Positions 248 to 14,262 are shown, numbered from the stretch's first letter. The stretch is DNA of 14,450 nucleotides from Candidatus Poribacteria bacterium (GCA_014730235.1 WJIO01000022.1:1-14450), one strand, 5' to 3'. Notes: generated by a model from the sequence alone, not told the origin. A program made the numbers and translations.

Positions 248-293
248 ATTAGGGAATGAATTCCCTAAAGTGTTAGGGAATTCATTCCCTAAT
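248..293 (-). repeat. Perfect 21-bp inverted repeat; candidate terminator and/or activator-binding site
   Basis: Arms 248-268 and 273-293 are exact reverse complements separated by a 4-base loop. Each arm is itself a near-palindrome (GGGAAT..ATTCCC with one central mismatch), so the unit is two palindromes 24 bp apart. The right arm overlaps the stop codon of the receiver gene (289-291). Read on the minus strand, a strong hairpin is followed by a modest T-rich run (TTTAAATT), so it could end the kinase/activator/receiver transcript. It also sits about 118-162 bp upstream of the predicted gvpA start, the usual distance for an enhancer bound by an NtrC-type activator. A further ATTCCC half-site at 212-217 is 48 bp from the one at 260-265, keeping the 24-bp phase. 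Confidence 0.7.
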
Positions 294-666
294 GATTAAT
301 AATTTTTTTCAGACACTCAATAAGGGAATTATTATCAAAAGGTTTATCAAAATAGCTGTTGAAACCAATTTTTTCAGCTTTTTCCTTAAGCCTGGTTGAA
401 CCGTATGAAGTTATAAGTATGGAAGGTAAATCAGCATATTTTTTTCTTAACTCTATCAGCAGATCAAATCCATTTTTATCTGGCAGACGGTAATCTATAA
501 CAGCCGCAGACAGGTTCACCTTTTCTGCTATAGAGATTGCTTCCCGGGCTGTATTGGCAATCTCAACCGAAAAGCCAGCTTCAGAAAGCACTTTGGATAA
601 TATCCAACACATATTTTCCTGATCATCTACTATAAGAATAGTCATTTCTTTACTAAAAAACCTCAT
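289..666 (-). CDS. Single-domain response regulator (receiver only)
   Basis: This is a 125-residue CheY-like receiver with no output domain. Acidic pocket D14-D15, phospho-acceptor D58 (in AAVIDYRLP), the conserved T86 (ITSYG) and K108 (FDKPF) are all present, so it should accept a phosphate. Its ATG overlaps the stop of the NtrC-like gene by 4 bp (ATGA), indicating translational coupling. An internal ATG at 645 (MTILIVDD) is an alternative start; neither has a strong ribosome binding site. Without an output domain it probably acts by protein contact or as a phosphate sink within the neighbouring kinase/activator pathway. In Serratia sp. ATCC 39006 the gas vesicle regulators (gvrA, gvrB, gvrC) are, as I recall, a comparable mix of NtrC-like, kinase-type and receiver proteins, so a role in gas vesicle control is a reasonable inference. 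Confidence 0.88.
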   Translation of the reverse strand: MRFFSKEMTILIVDDQENMCWILSKVLSEAGFSVEIANTAREAISIAEKVNLSAAVIDYRLPDKNGFDLLIELRKKYADLPSILITSYGSTRLKEKAEKIGFNSYFDKPFDNNSLIECLKKIINH

Positions 667-2060
667 AAGTTATCCAAGGCTTTTATCTTTGCCCGTAAGG
701 TTTTTGGGTCCAGGTTTAAAAACTTTGCCAGTTCCAGTTGAGTCATAGAGTTATTTCTCATGATCGCAGAAATAACTGCCATTTCAGCCTCTGTCGCCAT
801 CTTTTTACCCAAATCTTTAATATCTATCGGTCTGGAAATATCACAACTAAAATTCAGATCAAAATCCAGTTTATTGTCCTCTCTTTTACTGGGAATAAAT
901 ACCCCTTTCTGGATATTTGCCGGTAGATGTCCGGGTAATATTATCCTGTCTGCCGCAACCACTGCCCCTCCTACAGCGTATTCCAGTTCTCTGACGTTAC
1001 CAGGCCAGGAATATAAACAAATTAAATCCATTGCTTCATCAGATATTTCCATAGCTGGTTTGTCATATTTTTGAGAGTATTTGCTTATAAAGTTGTGGGT
1101 GAGAAGCTCTATATCACCCTTGCGATCCCTCAGAGGAGGTAATTCTATACAAACCCCTGAAATACGATAATACAAATCATCCCGAAAAGTCTTATTGGCG
1201 ATAGCTTGTGTAAGGTCAACATTACTGGCACTAATAAATCTTACATCAACGTCCTTGGCTGTTTTACCACCCAAAGGTACATATTGACGCTCCTGAATAA
1301 CTCGAAGAAGCTTAGCCTGATATTGTAGAGATAAGTTAGATATTTCATCCAGGAAAAATGTACCTTTATGGGCCCAATCAAGCTGTCCTGGTTTTGAAGT
1401 GTCCGCTCCGGTAAATGCACCTTTTTCATAACCAAATATTTCACTTTCAAATAGAGTTTCCGGAAGCGTAGAACAGTCAACAGGCGCAAATGCCTTTTGA
1501 CTTCTCTTGCTTATTTCGTGTATAGCCCTGGCAAAAAGTTCTTTTCCTGTTCCTGTTTCTCCATATAAAAGTATAGGTAAATCCGTTGGTCCATATTTTT
1601 CTATCATTTTCCATACTTTTTTTATTTGAGGGCTTTTACCTATTATTTTATGTTTGCTTTGAAGTTCCTTATACCTTCTTCGTCCTTTAAGGATTTCGGA
1701 TACGTTTTTTTTCAAACGTGGTATTTCAAAAGGTTTTTCAATATAATCAATAGCACCAAGTTTTATAGACTGAACCGCTGAATCAATACTCCCAAAGCCT
1801 GTAAAAACAATTACAGGGGTATTTCTTTGGTTTTGTGATAGACGTCTTAATACCGTCATACCACTCATGCGTGGCATTATAATATCTAAAAGAACCAGGT
1901 CAGGGGACACCGCATCAATTTTTCGAAGACCGTCCTCTCCACACATGGCGTCGTATACAGTAAAATCCGGTTGAAATGCAGAATTTAATACTTGGTGAAT
2001 ACCCGGCTCATCGTCAATTATCAATATTTTGGTTTGTTGATTATCCTCCATATTAATCAT
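663..2060 (-). CDS. NtrC-family sigma-54-dependent response regulator
   Basis: This 465-residue activator has the full three-domain layout. The receiver (about 10-125) has D16-D17, phospho-acceptor D59 and K109. The AAA+ domain (about 137-380) has Walker A GETGTGKE at 167-174, the sigma-54-contacting loop GAFTGA at 214-219, Walker B GTFFLDE at 233-239 and the R-finger region around RDDLYYR. The C-terminal Fis-type helix-turn-helix is at about 415-465. It should use ATP hydrolysis to open sigma-54 promoters once phosphorylated. A strong AGGAGG sits 7 nt before the chosen ATG at 2060, which overlaps the kinase stop by 4 bp. The upstream kinase is the obvious partner, and the sigma-54 promoter of gvpA downstream is the obvious target. 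The intact GAFTGA loop argues for a true sigma-54 activator. The binding site is inferred, not shown. Confidence 0.95.
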
Positions 2061-3118
2061 ATATCTTCCTCCTGACTTATGGGAAGAATTATAGTAAATA
2101 CGCTTCCTTTGCCGGGTTTGCTTTCAACGTTAATCTCTCCGCCGTGTTCTTCTACAACCCTTCTACAAAAAGGTAATCCAAGACCTGTACCCGAGGGTTT
2201 TGTGGAATAAAAAGGCCTGAAAATGGATCGTAATTCACTTTCAGTTAGTCCTTGACCGGTATCGGAAATCTCGATAAACATGGAATCTTTTCCCTCATTT
2301 AAATATGTTTTAACATTCAACAATCCACCCTGAGGCATGGCTTCAATAGCGTTTTTTAATAAATTTAAAAGCAATTGCTTTATTTCCCTGACATCAATTT
2401 CACATTCAGGCATATTCTCAACAAATTGATAACTTACACTTATATTATGAATCTCAGCTTCTTTATGTATAAATGTAAGCATCTGGGACAAAACTGGACG
2501 AAGGTCTGTAAATTCAAATCGCGGTCTTTGAGAACCGGTAAAACCTGATAGTATCCTCAAAAGATCGTGCATTTGTCTTATACTATCCATTATGGTTTCG
2601 AAAGGGGTAATTATCTCCGAATTATCTTTCTCTGAATCCATCAGTACTTTTTGTATATATTGAAGGGTTGAATTCATAATGCTGAGAGGATTACCTAATT
2701 CGTGGGCGATTGTAGAAGCCAGGAGACCCATGCCGGCCAGCTTTTCCGATTGTAAAAGTTGAGATTCCAAACGTGCCCTTTCGCTTATATCTTCAAGAGT
2801 AATTAAACACAGCGCGTTTTCATTTTTTTCTAAATTGTTTAGGGATGTTACTGTAGCTCTGAGAATTTTGGGATTTTCTGTCTCCAAATTCAGTTCGACC
2901 AGCTTTGTATTGCTGCCTTTTAAGACCAGATCAGCCTGTGTTCTAAGTTCTTTATGGGGTATTATTTCTGAAAGATCTTTACCTTCTATTTCTTCTTGAG
3001 GTCTTGAAAATAAAGTTTGACATATACGATTACATTTAATTATCCGGAAATTTTTATCCAGCACAAGGAAGGCATATGGTAAGGAATCTATAATATTTTT
3101 ATAAATCTTTTCATTCAT
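2057..3118 (-). CDS. Cytoplasmic NtrB-like PAS sensor histidine kinase
   Basis: This is a 353-residue kinase with no predicted membrane segment, so it senses an internal signal. A PAS domain covers about residues 5-112. A HisKA dimerisation segment follows, with the phospho-accepting H139 in AHELGNPLS. The ATP-binding domain shows an N box (NLLKNAIEAMP, 252-262), G1 box DTGQG (286-290), F-box-like FRPFYSTK (300-307) and G2 box GTGLGL (310-315). No clear ribosome binding site precedes the ATG at 3118; the context is an A/T run. It is the first gene of the kinase-activator-receiver operon, with a 4-bp ATGA overlap into the activator gene. The architecture is that of NtrB-type kinases that phosphorylate NtrC-type partners. 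The PAS ligand cannot be read from sequence; redox, oxygen or a small metabolite are all possible. Confidence 0.94.
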   Translation of the reverse strand: MNEKIYKNIIDSLPYAFLVLDKNFRIIKCNRICQTLFSRPQEEIEGKDLSEIIPHKELRTQADLVLKGSNTKLVELNLETENPKILRATVTSLNNLEKNENALCLITLEDISERARLESQLLQSEKLAGMGLLASTIAHELGNPLSIMNSTLQYIQKVLMDSEKDNSEIITPFETIMDSIRQMHDLLRILSGFTGSQRPRFEFTDLRPVLSQMLTFIHKEAEIHNISVSYQFVENMPECEIDVREIKQLLLNLLKNAIEAMPQGGLLNVKTYLNEGKDSMFIEISDTGQGLTESELRSIFRPFYSTKPSGTGLGLPFCRRVVEEHGGEINVESKPGKGSVFTIILPISQEEDI

Positions 3119-6734: not shown

Positions 6735-6920
6735 TCAGATATTACGAGTCTTTGGTATCATGTAAGAAAATCTTGAGAATACAGAGATAAAATGGTATAC
6801 CTCCCCTGAGTGAATGATATAAGACATAAATGAAAAGCTTATCAAGAAAATTAATATTTTGATATATACTTTATCAGGCGCATTTATGCGAGATGAATTT
6901 TTATTCTCCATCTGGATCAT
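6735..6920 (-). CDS. Possible small single-span membrane protein
   Basis: A 61-codon frame starts 10 bp after the stop of the sigma/surface-protein gene and ends 6 bp before a terminator-like hairpin. It has a charged start (about 1-17), one hydrophobic stretch (VYIKILIFLISFSFMSYII, about 18-36) and a basic, aromatic tail. GAGG precedes the first ATG at only 2 nt, which is too close; the second in-frame ATG (6911) would be about 11 nt away. I recognise no family. Placement inside the transcription unit and the membrane segment argue for a real product, but AT-rich DNA readily produces such frames by chance. Confidence 0.3.
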   Translation of the reverse strand: MIQMENKNSSRINAPDKVYIKILIFLISFSFMSYIIHSGEVYHFISVFSRFSYMIPKTRNI

Positions 6921-6930
6921 ATCCTCATGT

Positions 6931-9900
6931 CTAAGGTGAAGTTTTAAACTGAATATTATCAGCCCTGCCTATGAAATCCCATCCTCCACCGAAGATCAGG
7001 ATTCTCGTTATGGCTTTAGGAACCACTGGCGGATTGTATTCGTGGTATCCTTTGCCGTATCTGCGTCCATCTTCCACCAATACCGCATCGGCACATACAG
7101 GGATCATCTCTTTCAGATTGGGTGATATGTATGTATGCCACTGTTTCTGCCCAACCTTCGTGGAACTGCTGGGATATTTACTCTCACCTTTGTAATAAAC
7201 CCCATGTAGCCACCTGTAACCAATTCCTTTTTCATCTACAAAGGTCAATTCCACATTTACAGGATACTCACCACCTCCTGCCCATCCAGTACCCTCAAGG
7301 CTTTGATAGATGGGTTTCATATCCATCTGCAGGTATAGCTCATTATATTTTGACAGGTCAATGTATACATCATGGGCTAATCCTATCTGAGACCCGCTGC
7401 TGCCTCCATTTGTGCGCTTAAATTCCACAACGTTGGATTTTTTCTCTTCGTCATAAATTATTTCACAGGTCTGGGTGCTTATTTCGTCCTCGATATTCCA
7501 TTTTATCCATCCTTCGAAACCGTCCTCAAAATCAGTGAGTTTCGGGTATTTTTCTGTGGTTTCTTCGGGCAGGATTATCTTTTTGCCCGATGAATCTATA
7601 TCAGGGGGAGCGTATTTTTCCGGCACTTTAGGAGTAGGAAATCCACCGCTGGTCAGCTTAATATTCTGCTCTATTTCTTCAGCACCTTCAGAAACTTCCA
7701 CAGTGCCAGTATAGCGCATGGGCATTGGACAGGCTTCACCGGGTAAACATCGCTCAATTTTCATAGCACTTAATTGATGTATTCCCATTGGTAAATCCCG
7801 GATTTCATAGTTACCGTCCGAGTCGGTTATATCGGCCCCGCCTGAATGTAATAGGTCATCTTCAATACGCACACTGACAGTAGCGTCTTTTATCGGTTTC
7901 CCGTCTTCACCTGTAACCACACCATGAAGTTTAACACCACCACCCCCGCCCAGTGTAACGGAAGTAGTTTCACCTTCGGATACCTGGATTTCGGTAATTC
8001 TTACACTGGTGGCAAAGCCTTCTCCGCTCATCATCTGGGAAAGACGGTATTTGCCCGGTATAAGGTTTTCTATTTCAAAGTAACCTTCGTCGTCTGTTGT
8101 TGTAATTTTCATATAAGCAAAAAGACCTTTTCCTTGCATTACCTCATGGTCTTCCTTTACTTTAATATTTGGTATCCCCTCCAGCAGTCTGAGTTTTATG
8201 CTGTGGCCTGATATTGGCTCTGTGCCTTTACGGGCATGGCCGCTGACTTTTCCTCCTTTATTAAGCTTTGCGATGACTGAGGGTTTCCCCTCAAAGGGGC
8301 CGATTACCATAGGCGCATACCGGATATGATCAACGTACAGGAAGTTTTCTCCCGGTACTGCACCAATAGAGAACGAACCATCAGTACCACTCAGAGTTGA
8401 GCCAGTACCGCTTTTTCCCGCGTTGGAATACGGTGATGAGATCATGGGATATTCGGCGTTGAAGTGATGTATGGTGGCATTTTCCAGTGGTCTTCCGGTT
8501 TCTGCGTCGGTAACTATACCCTTGACGATAATTTCCCTTTCCATACTGATCACCAGATCATCAAAATCCGTTTTTTCTGTGGCAGTGACACGGGCTACAG
8601 TAGCAGGGGCATATCCATCAGCTATGGCTGTAAGTTTGTATATGCTTCCAACAGGAAAACCCGGGGCCACAAACTCACCTTCATCCGAAACATAACTCAC
8701 CCCGCTGCGGTTCCAATCGCAGGACATACCGTATCTAGGAACATCCTCACCGGGTTCCAGTTTCGGAAAGTCCAGCTTGATAATAAAGTGGGTGATGGGT
8801 TTTGAAGTCTCCGCGTCTACAACTCTACCCGCAAGTTTTCCCGATTGTTTCATGACAAATTCCAGATTGGTATCCCCCGGTGTTACAGACACTCCACGAA
8901 TATCAGTATATCCATCCCTCATAACAGCAGCGTCAATATGTGTTCCTTCTATATCCGGGATATTTTCGGCTTCAAATTTACCATCAGCGTCGGTCTTAGT
9001 CCATGTAACTATATGGTGTATTCTCATACGGTCTTTAAATAGACCAAAGGCTATACTAACTCCCTGAATAGGCTTGCCGTCCTGTTCTGTTACCTTCCCT
9101 GCCAGGATTTTACCCTGGTTTAACACAATATCCAGTTCCATGTTCCTTTTACCAACATCAATGCTTTTTAGACCAGAAGCATAACCTTCTGCTTTAGCTA
9201 TGACGCAATTATCACCTTCAGGTAAATATTTAACTGTGTATCGCCCGGTTTCATCTGTTTTCGCAGTTAAGTTTTCACTCATATAGGGCATTTTGCCTGC
9301 TATGACTTCCGCTCCTGATATTGGCTCTCCGGCTTCGTTTGTAACTTTACCAGTAACATTAATTCCGGCTCGCGGTTTAAGCATAATGTCCGGGACATTC
9401 GTCTTGCCTGTTTTTGTTACTTCAATTTCCACCTGTCCATATTTATAATCTTGGTGTTCGGCTGTTATTTTATATATATGAGACTGTTCCAGGCCTTTCA
9501 GGGTGTATTGACCCTGTAAATCAGTCCTGGCAGGTCCTATTCTCTTACCACTATTACCACTAATAGGTGTCCGCACCTCTGCATTTTCAATAGGATTTCC
9601 CTTGTCATCTATAACCCTACCGATTACATCTGTTCCGGGTATCAAGGCAAAATCAATATTTTCCAGCTTTTGCCCTCGGGATATTGCAACCATTTTGAAC
9701 TGAGTGGCAAAGCCATCGGCTGCAACCCAGACGCTTATATCCCCATAATTTTTCAATTCAAATTCATAATTTCCATCCTGATCCGTTGTCGCAGAGCCAT
9801 GTCTGAGTAGGCCGGGACGGACTTCCGCCCCGGATATAGGCCTTCCGTTTTCCGCTTTTGTAATCTTACCGGAGACGGTTGTTTTCTGCTGCATGTTCCC

Positions 9901-10848
9901 TTCCGGTGTTCCCGATGCCATGAGGTAATCCTGTGCATCCCCCATTCCTGATGAGTTTTCACCACTTGACATCTCCGTAAGGAATACAGGTATATTTTTA
10001 GAGCTTACCGGGGTTTTTACATGACGCTGAGATGCAATCTTATCTTCTTTTATCCCCCGGGGAGTAGATTCTTTTACCATTCGCTTTTCCACCGGAACTG
10101 ACGAGGTAATATTGTTAAAAGCCGCAACTTTAGGTATATTAGATGATAAATTCATGCTTATTAATGTAAAAAGGACGCATACGGCTGTTGATAATCCCCA
10201 GGGTATCCAGGGGTTACGGGGTAATGGTTTTACCCGTATTTTCCTTACGGTTTCTACAATCTTAAAGGTGAAATTGGCGTTTAGCTTGTGCTGTTGATAT
10301 GATTCTGACATCATCGTGACCATCTCCTTTTTTAATCTGGCCCTGGCCATGCTCAATCTGTGGGTAACAGTCCGGGTGGAAACACCGAGAAATCGGGCTA
10401 TTTCGCGTCTTTTCAGACCGCCCAGGTAATGAAGGGTTAATATCAATCGGTAATTTTCAGGAAGGGAGTTAAGAGCTTCGTCCAGGGATTCCACCATTGA
10501 ATCCTGTCGATAAGAATTCATGGATGATTTTTTCATGAAATCATCCGGTTGGTCTTCGATGTAATCACCATCAGGACGGCTGGACTGTGAGCGAACCCAG
10601 TCCTTGCAGAGGTTGGATGTAATGGAATAAAGCCACGCCAGGAAGTTGTCCCAGTATCTTAAGGTATGTAGTTTCTGATAGGCCTTTATAAAGGCTTCCT
10701 GGACAACATCTTCAGCATCGTGGAAGTTGTGCAGCTTTGAATAGGCCAGAGCATATATACTGGCCTTGTATTTGTCCACCAGCAGGCCAAAGGCTGCCTT
10801 ATCGCCATTAAGACATTTGCTGACTATATATCCGTCTTCTGTCCTCAT
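6931..10848 (-). CDS. ECF sigma factor fused to a membrane helix and surface repeat domains
   Basis: One uninterrupted 1305-residue frame holds a whole ECF sigma factor: region 2 at about 15-85 (DAEDVVQEAFIKAYQKL, 44-60) and region 4 at about 118-176 with a helix-turn-helix (RREIARFLGVSTRTVTHRL, 147-165). A basic stretch precedes one membrane helix (about 214-235), then a Ser/Thr/Pro-rich linker. Eight carboxypeptidase-regulatory-like repeats begin near 325, 408, 498, 582, 672, 775, 868 and 974, each opening with a G-x-V/I-T..G-x-P-I pattern. A C-terminal domain (about 1105-1303, FEDGFEGWIKW to GRADNIQF) looks like a carbohydrate-binding or galactose-binding jelly roll. Topology predicts sigma inside and about 1060 residues outside the cytoplasmic membrane. 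The start at 10848 has AGGTGG 6 nt upstream, within the preceding gene, which it overlaps by 41 bp. Tethering implies release by proteolysis or signalling through the membrane; this is inference. Confidence 0.92.
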   Translation of the reverse strand: MRTEDGYIVSKCLNGDKAAFGLLVDKYKASIYALAYSKLHNFHDAEDVVQEAFIKAYQKLHTLRYWDNFLAWLYSITSNLCKDWVRSQSSRPDGDYIEDQPDDFMKKSSMNSYRQDSMVESLDEALNSLPENYRLILTLHYLGGLKRREIARFLGVSTRTVTHRLSMARARLKKEMVTMMSESYQQHKLNANFTFKIVETVRKIRVKPLPRNPWIPWGLSTAVCVLFTLISMNLSSNIPKVAAFNNITSSVPVEKRMVKESTPRGIKEDKIASQRHVKTPVSSKNIPVFLTEMSSGENSSGMGDAQDYLMASGTPEGNMQQKTTVSGKITKAENGRPISGAEVRPGLLRHGSATTDQDGNYEFELKNYGDISVWVAADGFATQFKMVAISRGQKLENIDFALIPGTDVIGRVIDDKGNPIENAEVRTPISGNSGKRIGPARTDLQGQYTLKGLEQSHIYKITAEHQDYKYGQVEIEVTKTGKTNVPDIMLKPRAGINVTGKVTNEAGEPISGAEVIAGKMPYMSENLTAKTDETGRYTVKYLPEGDNCVIAKAEGYASGLKSIDVGKRNMELDIVLNQGKILAGKVTEQDGKPIQGVSIAFGLFKDRMRIHHIVTWTKTDADGKFEAENIPDIEGTHIDAAVMRDGYTDIRGVSVTPGDTNLEFVMKQSGKLAGRVVDAETSKPITHFIIKLDFPKLEPGEDVPRYGMSCDWNRSGVSYVSDEGEFVAPGFPVGSIYKLTAIADGYAPATVARVTATEKTDFDDLVISMEREIIVKGIVTDAETGRPLENATIHHFNAEYPMISSPYSNAGKSGTGSTLSGTDGSFSIGAVPGENFLYVDHIRYAPMVIGPFEGKPSVIAKLNKGGKVSGHARKGTEPISGHSIKLRLLEGIPNIKVKEDHEVMQGKGLFAYMKITTTDDEGYFEIENLIPGKYRLSQMMSGEGFATSVRITEIQVSEGETTSVTLGGGGGVKLHGVVTGEDGKPIKDATVSVRIEDDLLHSGGADITDSDGNYEIRDLPMGIHQLSAMKIERCLPGEACPMPMRYTGTVEVSEGAEEIEQNIKLTSGGFPTPKVPEKYAPPDIDSSGKKIILPEETTEKYPKLTDFEDGFEGWIKWNIEDEISTQTCEIIYDEEKKSNVVEFKRTNGGSSGSQIGLAHDVYIDLSKYNELYLQMDMKPIYQSLEGTGWAGGGEYPVNVELTFVDEKGIGYRWLHGVYYKGESKYPSSSTKVGQKQWHTYISPNLKEMIPVCADAVLVEDGRRYGKGYHEYNPPVVPKAITRILIFGGGWDFIGRADNIQFKTSP

Positions 10849-11269
10849 TGCTCTCCACCTTCTTTAATAATTTATTGGTTTCATTTATTAAGACGGAGCA
10901 AAAGGCATAAAGTGGAAGAAAAAATGTTATTCCGATTTTATTAAGTGGTTCATACAACAGGCTATTATGCCAGAATTGCATAATCTCTTTATGTTTATCA
11001 GGAGACGGGATGCCTATCCTGAGATAGTTTTTTGATGGTTTATCATCTTCTGCGGCTACCTCTAACCTTCCGCTCCATGAACCCTGTTGCAGGCCTTGCA
11101 TTTTATCCAGTATATGCCTTTTATAGCTATTATCCGGCTGGAGCTTTGATATTATGGTGGTCAATTTGGCTTCGTTGAGATATGTCTTCAGTATGCATTC
11201 TGTAAGATCACTTATCTCATTTTTGCAGAAATTGATATATCTCTCTGTAATCCTTACAGCTTCAGCCAC
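10808..11269 (-). CDS. Unrecognised protein overlapping the sigma-fusion start
   Basis: The frame gives 153 residues from a GTG at 11269, the first conventional start. I do not recognise the family. It is mainly helical and charged, with a Trp/Arg/Glu-containing middle (SWSGRLEVAAED) and a hydrophobic but not clearly membrane-spanning stretch (IGITFFLPLYAFCSVLI). The GTG lacks a ribosome binding site, and the same frame stays open upstream for more than 150 bp without ATG, GTG or TTG. A perfect AGGAGG at 11354-11349 stands 7 nt from an in-frame ATC at 11341, which would add 24 residues (ISKVNTQIRII...). Its 3' end overlaps the sigma-fusion gene by 41 bp, so translation is probably coupled. 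A partner or regulator of the tethered sigma factor is possible, but nothing in it resembles known anti-sigma factors. Confidence 0.65.
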   Translation of the reverse strand: MAEAVRITERYINFCKNEISDLTECILKTYLNEAKLTTIISKLQPDNSYKRHILDKMQGLQQGSWSGRLEVAAEDDKPSKNYLRIGIPSPDKHKEIMQFWHNSLLYEPLNKIGITFFLPLYAFCSVLINETNKLLKKVESNEDRRRIYSQQMS

Positions 11270-11593: not shown

Positions 11594-11622
11594 TTGACTT
11601 TGCAGATGACCTTCTGTAAAAT
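11594..11622 (+). promoter_or_regulatory. Sigma-70 promoter for the plus-strand gene run
   Basis: TTGACT (11594-11599), 17 bp, TAAAAT (11617-11622): five of six matches in each box and ideal spacing. The start would be near 11629, about 52 nt before the ATPase ATG at 11681. It was probably the original promoter of the ABC transporter genes and may now drive the dehydrogenase and the genes after it. Confidence 0.6.
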
Positions 11623-11680
11623 GCCGCTGTGGGTCTGTCAAATTTCAATTATTGCCATTATTAAACCATTAAAATTTATT

Positions 11681-12115
11681 ATGAATAATGTTATCAGAAC
11701 AGAAAATTTAACGAAGAGTTTTGGCAAGATAAAAGCCGTTAATAATATTTCTCTGGCTTCCGGTCTTATTATCGGAAAGATTATCCAGCTTTCAGGGTGG
11801 TCAGATGATATGTCTTTCCGTAGGGCTTATACATACTTGATAACCTCTCTTATTTCAATGCTACTCAGTACACCAGTAGCATTTTTCGCAAGTTACGGTC
11901 GCGGATACTTACCTCCTTTAGGTTTTGTGATTCTTACCCTTATTATAGCCCAGTTTATAAGTTTGGTAGGTCTAGGTCCCTATTTTCCATGGGCAATCCC
12001 GGCGTTATATACAGAAAACGCGCAGTTAGGGGTGATAAGCTATATTATTCTTTTCCTGACAATTATTTACGGATTGATCGCCACCCTTGCATGGTGGCGT
12101 TTCGCGGATCAGTAA
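11681..12115 (+). pseudogene. ABC transporter remnant: ATPase start fused in frame to permease end
   Basis: Residues 1-25 (MNNVIRTENLTKSFGKIKAV then NNISL) are the usual beginning of a drug-export type ABC ATPase, stopping just before where Walker A should be. From 11756 the reading changes to the C-terminal half of an ABC-2 type permease: ASGLIIGKIIQLSGW, then three membrane segments (about residues 45-68, 73-98 and 118-142), the GRGYLPPLGF loop, GLGPYFPWAIP and a final WWRFADQ. Most of the ATPase, including Walker A, signature and Walker B, plus the first part of the permease are gone. A single deletion across the two adjacent genes explains this. I took the ATG at 11681 because it gives the normal ATPase start; the longer frame from 11594 begins inside the -35 box. 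No ribosome binding site is obvious. It cannot work as a transporter, though an in-frame membrane peptide could still be made. Confidence 0.82.
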
Positions 12116-13175: not shown

Positions 13176-13204
13176 AGCTATTATTCAAACAATTGGAGAT
13201 TATC

Positions 13205-13462
13205 ATGCCAGAAACAGCAATCCAAATTTATAAGGAACATTACGTTAAGCCACCAGACAAAGAGAAATCCGAAGGTTTAAGCCAGCGAGTTGTAAAGCTG
13301 AGAAAACTTAACATTATGTTTACCAACAAACCTGATCCTACAGAACGAGGTCAGGCCCTAATGGATTCCTATGATGAAACCAGGGCTGAATCTGTTATCA
13401 TTCGCAGGGCCAAAACGGTAGCCAAGATACTTGAAACAAAATCCCTGCTGTTGGATGACTGA
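13205..13462 (+). CDS. Small hypothetical protein
   Basis: An 85-residue, soluble, highly charged protein that I do not recognise. It starts MPETAIQIYKEHYVKPP and ends with a helical, basic stretch (ESVIIRRAKTVAKILETKS). It has no signal peptide or membrane segment. GGAG at 13195-13198 is 6 nt before the ATG at 13205; the longer reading from a TTG at 13193 would overlap that ribosome binding site, so ATG is preferred. It sits 29 bp after the dehydrogenase and 35 bp before the LamG gene, all in one direction, which suggests a shared transcript. The recurring D/E-R-A/T words give it the look of a helical adaptor, but no function should be assumed. Confidence 0.7.
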   Translation: MPETAIQIYKEHYVKPPDKEKSEGLSQRVVKLRKLNIMFTNKPDPTERGQALMDSYDETRAESVIIRRAKTVAKILETKSLLLDD

Positions 13463-13497: not shown

Positions 13498-14262
13498 ATG
13501 AGATTCAGAGCTATTAATTTAGTTGCCATAGTATTTATGATGATCTTTACGTATTCTGTAATTGCTGTTGATATAGATGAAAACACAATGGCCCTATGGT
13601 CTTTCAACGATGCCAAAGATGACATTATAAAAGACTTATCGGGCCGAGGACATGATCTGGAAATACAGGGAGGCCATGAGTGGATAGCCGGGAAATTTGG
13701 CACGGCTCTGTTCTTCGAAATCGATGCCTTTATTGAATATGAAGCACATCCGGATTTAAGTTTTGAAGATGGTTTGACAATCGAGCTATGGTTAAATCTG
13801 GAAGATATTGATCCCCAGGAAGTGGTGGGAATACCCCGAAAAGAAAACGAGTATGTTCTGGCTGCCTATGAACAGGGGGATGGATTTTATATGGGCCCCT
13901 GGCTGAATAACGGGGCATGGGTAGGGCCAGCTAATTCAACGGTTGTCGTTCCTTACGGCGAATGGCATTATCATGCCATCACCTATGACGGAAATGAAAT
14001 CAAGGTTTATGTGGACGGTGAAGAAACAGGATCAATGGAGATACCCGGCCCCTTAAATGCCACAGATGCACCTTTTAAAATTTCCAATAGCTGCTGTGGT
14101 GGAAGGTTCTTTATCGGTGCAATTGATGATATGCGCATATCCAATGTCCCTCGCACAGAGGAAGAGATTAACAATTTGATGATAAGCGGTATAGATGGTA
14201 TGCTTTCTGTAAACCCATCTGACGCTTTGCCTTCTGTCTGGGGATATATCAAAAACAAGTAG
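13498..14262 (+). CDS. Secreted LamG/concanavalin A-like lectin-fold protein
   Basis: The 254-residue protein opens with a typical signal peptide: basic MRFR, hydrophobic core about 6-22, likely cleavage after VIA (21-23). The mature part is a LamG-like jelly roll (about 28-220): MALWSFND, DLSGRGHDLEI, GKFGTALFF, LTIELWLNL, GEWHYHAITYDGNEIKVYVDGE and IGAIDDMRISNVPRTEEEI are its usual landmarks. Such domains bind glycans or proteins outside the cell. The tail LSVNPSDALPSVWGYIK resembles the short tail I associate with secreted LamG proteins of Poribacteria, a recollection rather than a proven signature. GAGG lies about 9 nt before the ATG. It is the last gene of the plus-strand run before an insertion sequence. 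No catalytic domain is present. Confidence 0.88.
   Translation: MRFRAINLVAIVFMMIFTYSVIAVDIDENTMALWSFNDAKDDIIKDLSGRGHDLEIQGGHEWIAGKFGTALFFEIDAFIEYEAHPDLSFEDGLTIELWLNLEDIDPQEVVGIPRKENEYVLAAYEQGDGFYMGPWLNNGAWVGPANSTVVVPYGEWHYHAITYDGNEIKVYVDGEETGSMEIPGPLNATDAPFKISNSCCGGRFFIGAIDDMRISNVPRTEEEINNLMISGIDGMLSVNPSDALPSVWGYIKNK

Follow-up and report, generated by a model that had tools for sequence, protein, structure and literature searches.

A phylum-wide family of membrane-tethered ECF sigma factors with exchangeable ectodomains in Candidatus Poribacteria

In Pseudomonas putida the fused sigma/anti-sigma protein IutY (ECF243) frees its extracytoplasmic function (ECF) sigma factor through Prc and RseP (PMC5411451, PMC8999054), the periplasmic part first being trimmed to about 50 residues to give the RseP substrate (PMC5411451). 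In ECF52 of Streptomyces (SCO4117) a single chain holds an ECF sigma factor, a transmembrane (TM) segment and, outside the cytoplasm, a carbohydrate-binding domain; positive autoregulation and IutY-like proteolytic release were proposed for it (PMC5826349). In the description of the ECF57 proteins of Planctomycetes two cysteines are conserved, and a link between sigma2 and sigma4 through them was proposed (PMC8999054); ECF-WD40 proteins are known from Tuwongella (PMC8567305). The SigI/RsgI systems of Clostridium thermocellum join a constant inside/TM module to exchangeable ectodomains (carbohydrate-binding modules (CBMs), GH10, peptidase-like) and undergo RseP cleavage (PMC12203970). Here we analysed a 14,450-nucleotide stretch of DNA from a Candidatus Poribacteria bacterium (GCA_014730235.1, WJIO01000022.1:1-14450; hereafter the window), which carries the gene for a predicted membrane-tethered ECF sigma factor of 1305 residues. 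None of the papers searched connects Poribacteria with membrane-tethered sigma factors of this design; Kamke 2014 lists many poribacterial WD40 proteins and leaves sigma unmentioned (PMC3909097).

The gene is an uninterrupted open reading frame (ORF) of 1305 codons at 6931..10848 on the minus strand, with its ATG at 10848 and its stop codon ending at 6931. An earlier sequence-only reading had placed it correctly without stating the strand. The protein consists of sigma2 and sigma4, a 35-residue linker, one TM helix and about 1070 further residues, close to the 1060 or so extracytoplasmic residues predicted earlier. Pfam identified Sigma70_r2 at residues 23-90 (7.5e-17) and Sigma70_r4_2 at residues 121-172 (4e-15), and the NCBIfam sigma70-ECF model matched at 3.9e-27. 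Sigma region 2 (residues 1-90; 10579..10848, minus strand like all features of this gene) retains an intact core-binding motif, DAEDVVQEAFIKAY, as judged from Pfam, alignment and structure match, and region 4 (residues 121-178; 10315..10488) an intact helix-turn-helix by Pfam and alignment. The conserved cytoplasmic linker, LNANFTFKIVETVRKIRVKPLPR, spans residues 179-213 (10210..10314). Hydropathy placed the TM helix at about residues 214-235 (10144..10209) and AlphaFold at 217-234, in agreement with the single membrane helix first reported. An extracytoplasmic stub follows (residues 236-310; 9919..10143), degenerate in the window copy and conserved in a large clade of sponge symbionts. The remainder comprises an array of CarboxypepD_reg (transthyretin-like) repeats at residues 322-1076 (7621..9885; seven Pfam stretches, 5.5e-71) and a C-terminal jelly-roll domain of CBM-like predicted fold at residues 1099-1305 (6934..7554). 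The term adhesin-like, used for this half in the sequence-only reading, was loosely right.

The N-terminal sigma-linker-TM module was detected in 73 of the 84 genomes of the phylum (E <= 1e-35). Genomes without it cluster in two families, with single genomes besides; the one genome from the same order as that of the window is among them. One family has up to 68 matches per genome (E <= 1e-30), and the genes often stand in tandem arrays of 3-kb genes. We collected at least 231 distinct TM-bearing members, nearly all with the TM segment starting at position 210-228 of the sigma, as in the window protein. The sigma-helix-ectodomain order is kept in these homologues and is not split into separate genes. 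In one genome (G010), 18 members extend through the TM segment and five more carry the sigma domain with other extensions. The best named relatives of the genome of the window are poribacterial MAGs (metagenome-assembled genomes), and every genome in the set for the phylum is related to it. It encodes four further paralogues in which a homologous sigma-linker-TM part is joined to other ectodomains: Kelch (L002), glycosidase-like propellers (L003 and L005) and a jelly-roll-like part plus PKD (L004). A contig scan with the full window protein as query gave no matches. With a 36-row alignment as query, the complete module occurred, among the matches listed, only in Poribacteria; those listed from outside the phylum had the sigma part alone, except for one Hydrogenedentota protein.

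Several related architectures were seen alongside these genes. In a Hydrogenedentota MAG, L163:3944-6373 encodes an ECF sigma with TM segments and weak FecR_C and STN matches, possibly a sigma/FecR fusion. Family sigma domains without a TM segment are fused to thioredoxin plus PD40 (L298:3928-6297), to an M61 peptidase (L159:481-3453) and, in the genome of the window, directly to a lectin-like domain that resembles a 3-keto-disaccharide hydrolase (L006:895-2049). An ECF sigma is fused to a Pup ligase domain at L107:58-2031 (G016:C215; PF03136, 2e-113). Genes of a second ECF-TM family, whose ectodomain (YLSPWEDGT) is of another kind, lie on both sides of a member of the present family (L299:2175-3359 and 6917-8323).

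Conservation within the family ends shortly outside the membrane. Between tandem copies, identity was 65-94% in sigma, 67-98% in the linker and 60-85% in the first 50 outside residues, and 21-60% in the remainder. The stub of the large clade reads FQKPYSfdA.SE.TVEiidaPvV, and between ectodomain groups similarity stops at a median of 73 residues past the TM segment. About half of 69 ectodomains are BNR/sortilin-type propellers and about 17 are WD40; PD40, Kelch, leucine-rich repeat (LRR), C-type lectin with CarboxypepD, M16-like, GH32-like and PKD types also occur. BLAST clustering of 207 ectodomains gave 17 unrelated groups. On the sigma tree the ectodomain changed about 39 times, compared with 74 when labels were shuffled, and there are pairs with 90-94% identity from sigma to stub and unrelated ectodomains (for example, unrelated propellers at 93.6%). 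Of 75 members that adjoin a signal-peptide gene, 13 have an ectodomain homologous to the secreted product of that neighbour, with identity reaching 71% over 416 residues. Sigma-TM-Kelch genes adjoin secreted-Kelch genes at L077, L085, L086 and L002/L070, as if the sensor had been copied from the neighbour. The idea that much of the poribacterial WD40 repertoire is sigma-fused was rejected, the majority of WD40 frames in G010 being unfused.

The part beyond the TM helix most likely lies outside the cell, because lysine plus arginine is more frequent before the TM segment than after it in 187 of 227 members, because six members carry a KLATTWGxIK-like C-terminal tag, and because of the homology to secreted neighbours. 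Elsewhere the tag is found for the most part on proteins with a signal peptide (41 of 347, against 7 of 711), and it may serve for sorting or anchoring. Secreted proteins ending in an SVxPxGKLaTtWGxIK-type tag are encoded at 13498-14262 of the window and at L006, L057, L070, L302, L304, L306 and others.

The poribacterial proteins share with IutY a cytosolic ECF sigma, one TM segment and an extracytoplasmic part in one polypeptide, and their constant stub is comparable in length to the trimmed periplasmic part of IutY. Unlike IutY, which has an anti-sigma domain in the periplasm and takes its signal from an outer-membrane receptor, they lack an anti-sigma domain and have a variable, presumably ligand-binding ectodomain; FecR gave no match to the window protein and is not one of the 25 most frequent families in 69 ectodomains. 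ECF52 likewise has sigma, TM segment and outside domain in one chain, whereas its zinc-finger anti-sigma domain between sigma and TM, its proline-rich stretch and its restriction to Actinobacteria have no counterpart in the poribacterial family, which has far more copies and a far wider range of ectodomains. With ECF57 the family has in common an ECF sigma, a C-terminal extension (WD40-like in ECF57) and many paralogues per genome. It differs from the description of ECF57 in having no conserved cysteine in sigma4, and the window protein has CarboxypepD_reg in place of WD40, which about 17 of 69 homologues do have. RsgI proteins are similarly paralogous membrane sensors with a constant inside/TM module and exchangeable ectodomains, but there SigI and the anti-sigma factor RsgI are two proteins, and RsgI includes a periplasmic domain that cleaves itself, whereas here sensor and ECF sigma are one chain. 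In canonical pairs of ECF and membrane zinc-finger anti-sigma factors the sigma part is alike, and sensor and anti-sigma are separate genes; the genome of the window has such a pair (L007), an ordinary ECF gene followed by a separate gene for a zinc-finger membrane anti-sigma factor. Because the zinc finger of ECF52, the FecR domain of IutY and the cysteine pair of ECF57 were not found here, we regard the phylum-wide family as a new form of the known fused, membrane-bound ECFs, set apart from its relatives by their descriptions. An existing ECF group number may already cover it. The sequence-only reading was correct that C-terminal extensions on sigma factors are known, and vague about precedents as close as ECF52, IutY and ECF57.

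The sigma half appears complete throughout. In the family alignment D5, F20, Q50, F53, L60, W72, L129, Y141 and A168 are invariant, C81 nearly so, and the core-binding and helix-turn-helix positions are conserved; the degeneration of sigma motifs that would have spoken against an active factor was not seen. An AlphaFold model was built with 36 sequences. Its sigma region 2 fits sigmaE region 2 bound to the -10 element (Z 13.9, rmsd 2.0). The whole model resembles the closed, anti-sigma-bound arrangement of SigW:RsiW (Z 14.2, 156 residues) and CnrH:CnrY (Z 12.8), and RNA polymerase (RNAP)-bound sigmas superpose over both sigma domains only at rmsd >20. The linker contains a helix at residues 193-202 (pLDDT about 97), and in mean-field covariation residues 190-205 covary most with residues 163-178 and 109-130 of sigma4. 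No zf-HC2 match was obtained in the window protein, and linker residues 179-213 have no conserved cysteine or histidine in the family alignment. Model and covariation give a hint, and no more, that the linker could be a built-in anti-sigma. The sequence-only reading had proposed looking for a conserved protease site between residues 176 and 214. We could read none in this conserved segment, which folding and covariation suggest packs on sigma; the TM helix and the constant outside stub (about 60-80 residues) are better candidates for the processing zone.

Promoters of autoregulatory type precede part of the family genes. An ECF-type promoter, ATGCAACCtTTT..CTAAnTTGCGTCACTatA (GCAACC-N17-CGTCA), was found ahead of 60 of 225 family genes (27%), between positions -70 and -104. 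Among 817 other ORFs there were 22 matches, mostly redundant family copies or pattern-picked loci, with three unbiased non-family genes. The exact pattern matched 24 times in four genomes that are complete or nearly so, against once in a reversed control, and these matches precede both family genes and secreted-protein genes. From its position and from the habit of ECF factors we infer that the family sigmas read this promoter. The GCAAC promoter was not found in the clade of the window gene, where the CGTC -10 recurs together with another -35; a CGTC-type -10 lies upstream of 12 of 25 genes against 1.1 expected, the patterns having been picked post hoc. Before the window gene, a promoter-like element (10892..10918, minus strand) has CGTCTTA at 10895, 47 nt before the ATG, and CCACTTT upstream of it, and is weaker than the family promoter.

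The ectodomain of the window copy has probably been exchanged within its lineage, because the closest orthologues by sigma (48-60%) carry WD40-type sequence at their end (by Pfam for one). Its last 207 residues had no sequence match in Pfam or the PDB. The model of this domain (pLDDT 70, pTM 0.76) gave CBM11 as its best Foldseek match (5.7e-7) and resembled a hyaluronan-binding module (Z 11.5, rmsd 2.9, 138 residues) and CBM16 (Z 11). Sugar binding is likely on the strength of this model, and we put it no more firmly because other jelly-roll proteins score as high. The same domain recurs in three other genomes. In G042 and G043 it is borne by membrane-anchored C-type lectins. In G049 (L294/L297, G049:C39) it is found with a CarboxypepD_reg match on an M56/BlaR1-like receptor, and a sulfatase-like gene adjoins.

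These proteins are very probably receptors with a sigma output. The fuller reading, which we consider probable, is a one-protein transmembrane receptor whose ECF sigma is kept at the membrane and freed by intramembrane proteolysis. On precedent, this mode of release appears the most likely mechanism, by a modest measure, because of the fused ECFs IutY and ECF52 and the cassette logic of RsgI. The sigma domain would be held at the membrane, and packing of the linker helix on sigma4 would help to keep its halves together. The ectodomain would meet its ligand, and in the window copy the CarboxypepD_reg repeats and the CBM-like end would probably bind a polysaccharide. Shedding of the ectodomain would allow an RseP-type site-2 protease to cut in or near the TM helix, and the freed sigma of about 23 kDa would join RNA polymerase and activate its own gene and secreted-protein genes from promoters with a CGTC -10 element. 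That the sensor would be part of the sigma chain had been proposed before; the conserved domain order, the intact sigma and the lack of a zinc-finger anti-sigma neighbour agree with it. The proteolytic release that it suggested is somewhat more likely than not.

Several points weigh against this scheme. The case is built from sequence and models. The closed sigma arrangement may stem from a bias in AlphaFold training, and the linker-sigma4 covariation block ranks 181 of 5100 (top 4%) with about 98 effective sequences. The lack of an anti-sigma neighbour, which favours the scheme, comes from a test that covered zinc-finger types directly downstream only, other types not having been searched for; a zf-HC2-like ORF stood there in 0 of the 169 members that could be tested, as opposed to 15 of 32 short ECFs. 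The genome encodes an RseP-like M50 protease; such proteases are near-universal (14 of 14 control genomes) and their presence therefore says little. No recognisable site-1 protease site was found, and the stub is degenerate in the window copy. The promoter element of the window gene was matched post hoc and falls within a short overlapping ORF.

Some of these points would also suit a sigma that is active while tethered, like ToxR and CadC, with ligand freeing it uncut from the linker and RNAP being recruited at the membrane. The tightly packed linker helix predicted by the model, its weak covariation with sigma4, the lack of a visible site-1 motif and a linker conserved as much as the sigma domain or more (67-98% in tandem copies of the large clade) all fit such action. 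A sigma however has to go into the RNAP clamp and, once initiation is over, to come out again; a tether hampers both, and IutY, the nearest tested fused ECF, requires proteolysis (PMC5411451); we consider tethered activity rather improbable. Autoregulatory-type promoters, ectodomains akin to neighbouring secreted proteins and the sorting-like tag on some members would be expected if the outside part were itself the working product, a surface adhesin or lectin, and the sigma only boosted its own expression without sensing. This is unlikely: the promoters also precede separate secreted-protein genes, the C-terminal domain of the window protein recurs on a signalling receptor of M56/BlaR1 type, and dozens of different ectodomains on one output module form a receptor pattern. 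It is very unlikely that the sigma part is a decoy sequestering core RNAP or blocking promoters, for which nothing direct speaks beyond the lower activity that tethering would itself cause, since core-binding and DNA-binding positions are conserved family-wide and a matching ECF promoter precedes the genes. Chance fusion, read-through, frameshift or misassembly, conceivable for a window that is one whole contig of a MAG in 451 contigs, can be set aside because at least 231 genes elsewhere share the sigma-linker-TM-ectodomain order with the TM segment at the same place, many of them in genomes that consist of a single contig, G010 and G037 being examples.

Among the uncultured symbionts of sponges Poribacteria are dominant, and a receptor-sigma family bears on how they sense their host and polysaccharide surroundings. 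A tentative extension of the receptor reading is that they run much of their surface sensing in this way, with one chain per signal, the linker as built-in anti-sigma, and sensors cassette-swapped between tandem copies and copied from secreted neighbours. With dozens of sigma-coupled receptors per genome, a GCAACC-N17-CGTCA promoter linking sensors to secreted products would make regulons predictable from sequence. Some of the 'eukaryote-like' WD40, Kelch and LRR proteins of these symbionts are, on this reading, the sensor halves of sigma factors. Natural cassette-swapped sigma receptors also offer material for studying the release of tethered sigma.

Other ORFs of the window were also inspected. 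A 153-residue ORF on the minus strand (10808-11269) shares 41 bases with the start of the sigma gene; it had no homologue among the fetched loci or in Pfam and may not be a gene. By eye, the ORF at 11594-12115 opens like an ABC transporter ATPase and finishes like a permease; it has no Pfam match and is probably a decayed transporter. At 13193-13462 an 89-residue ORF has a partial pyruvate formate lyase-like match (E 0.0027) and is a gene fragment. An operon-like run on the minus strand (289-3118) encodes a histidine kinase, an NtrC-type sigma54 activator and a single-receiver response regulator.

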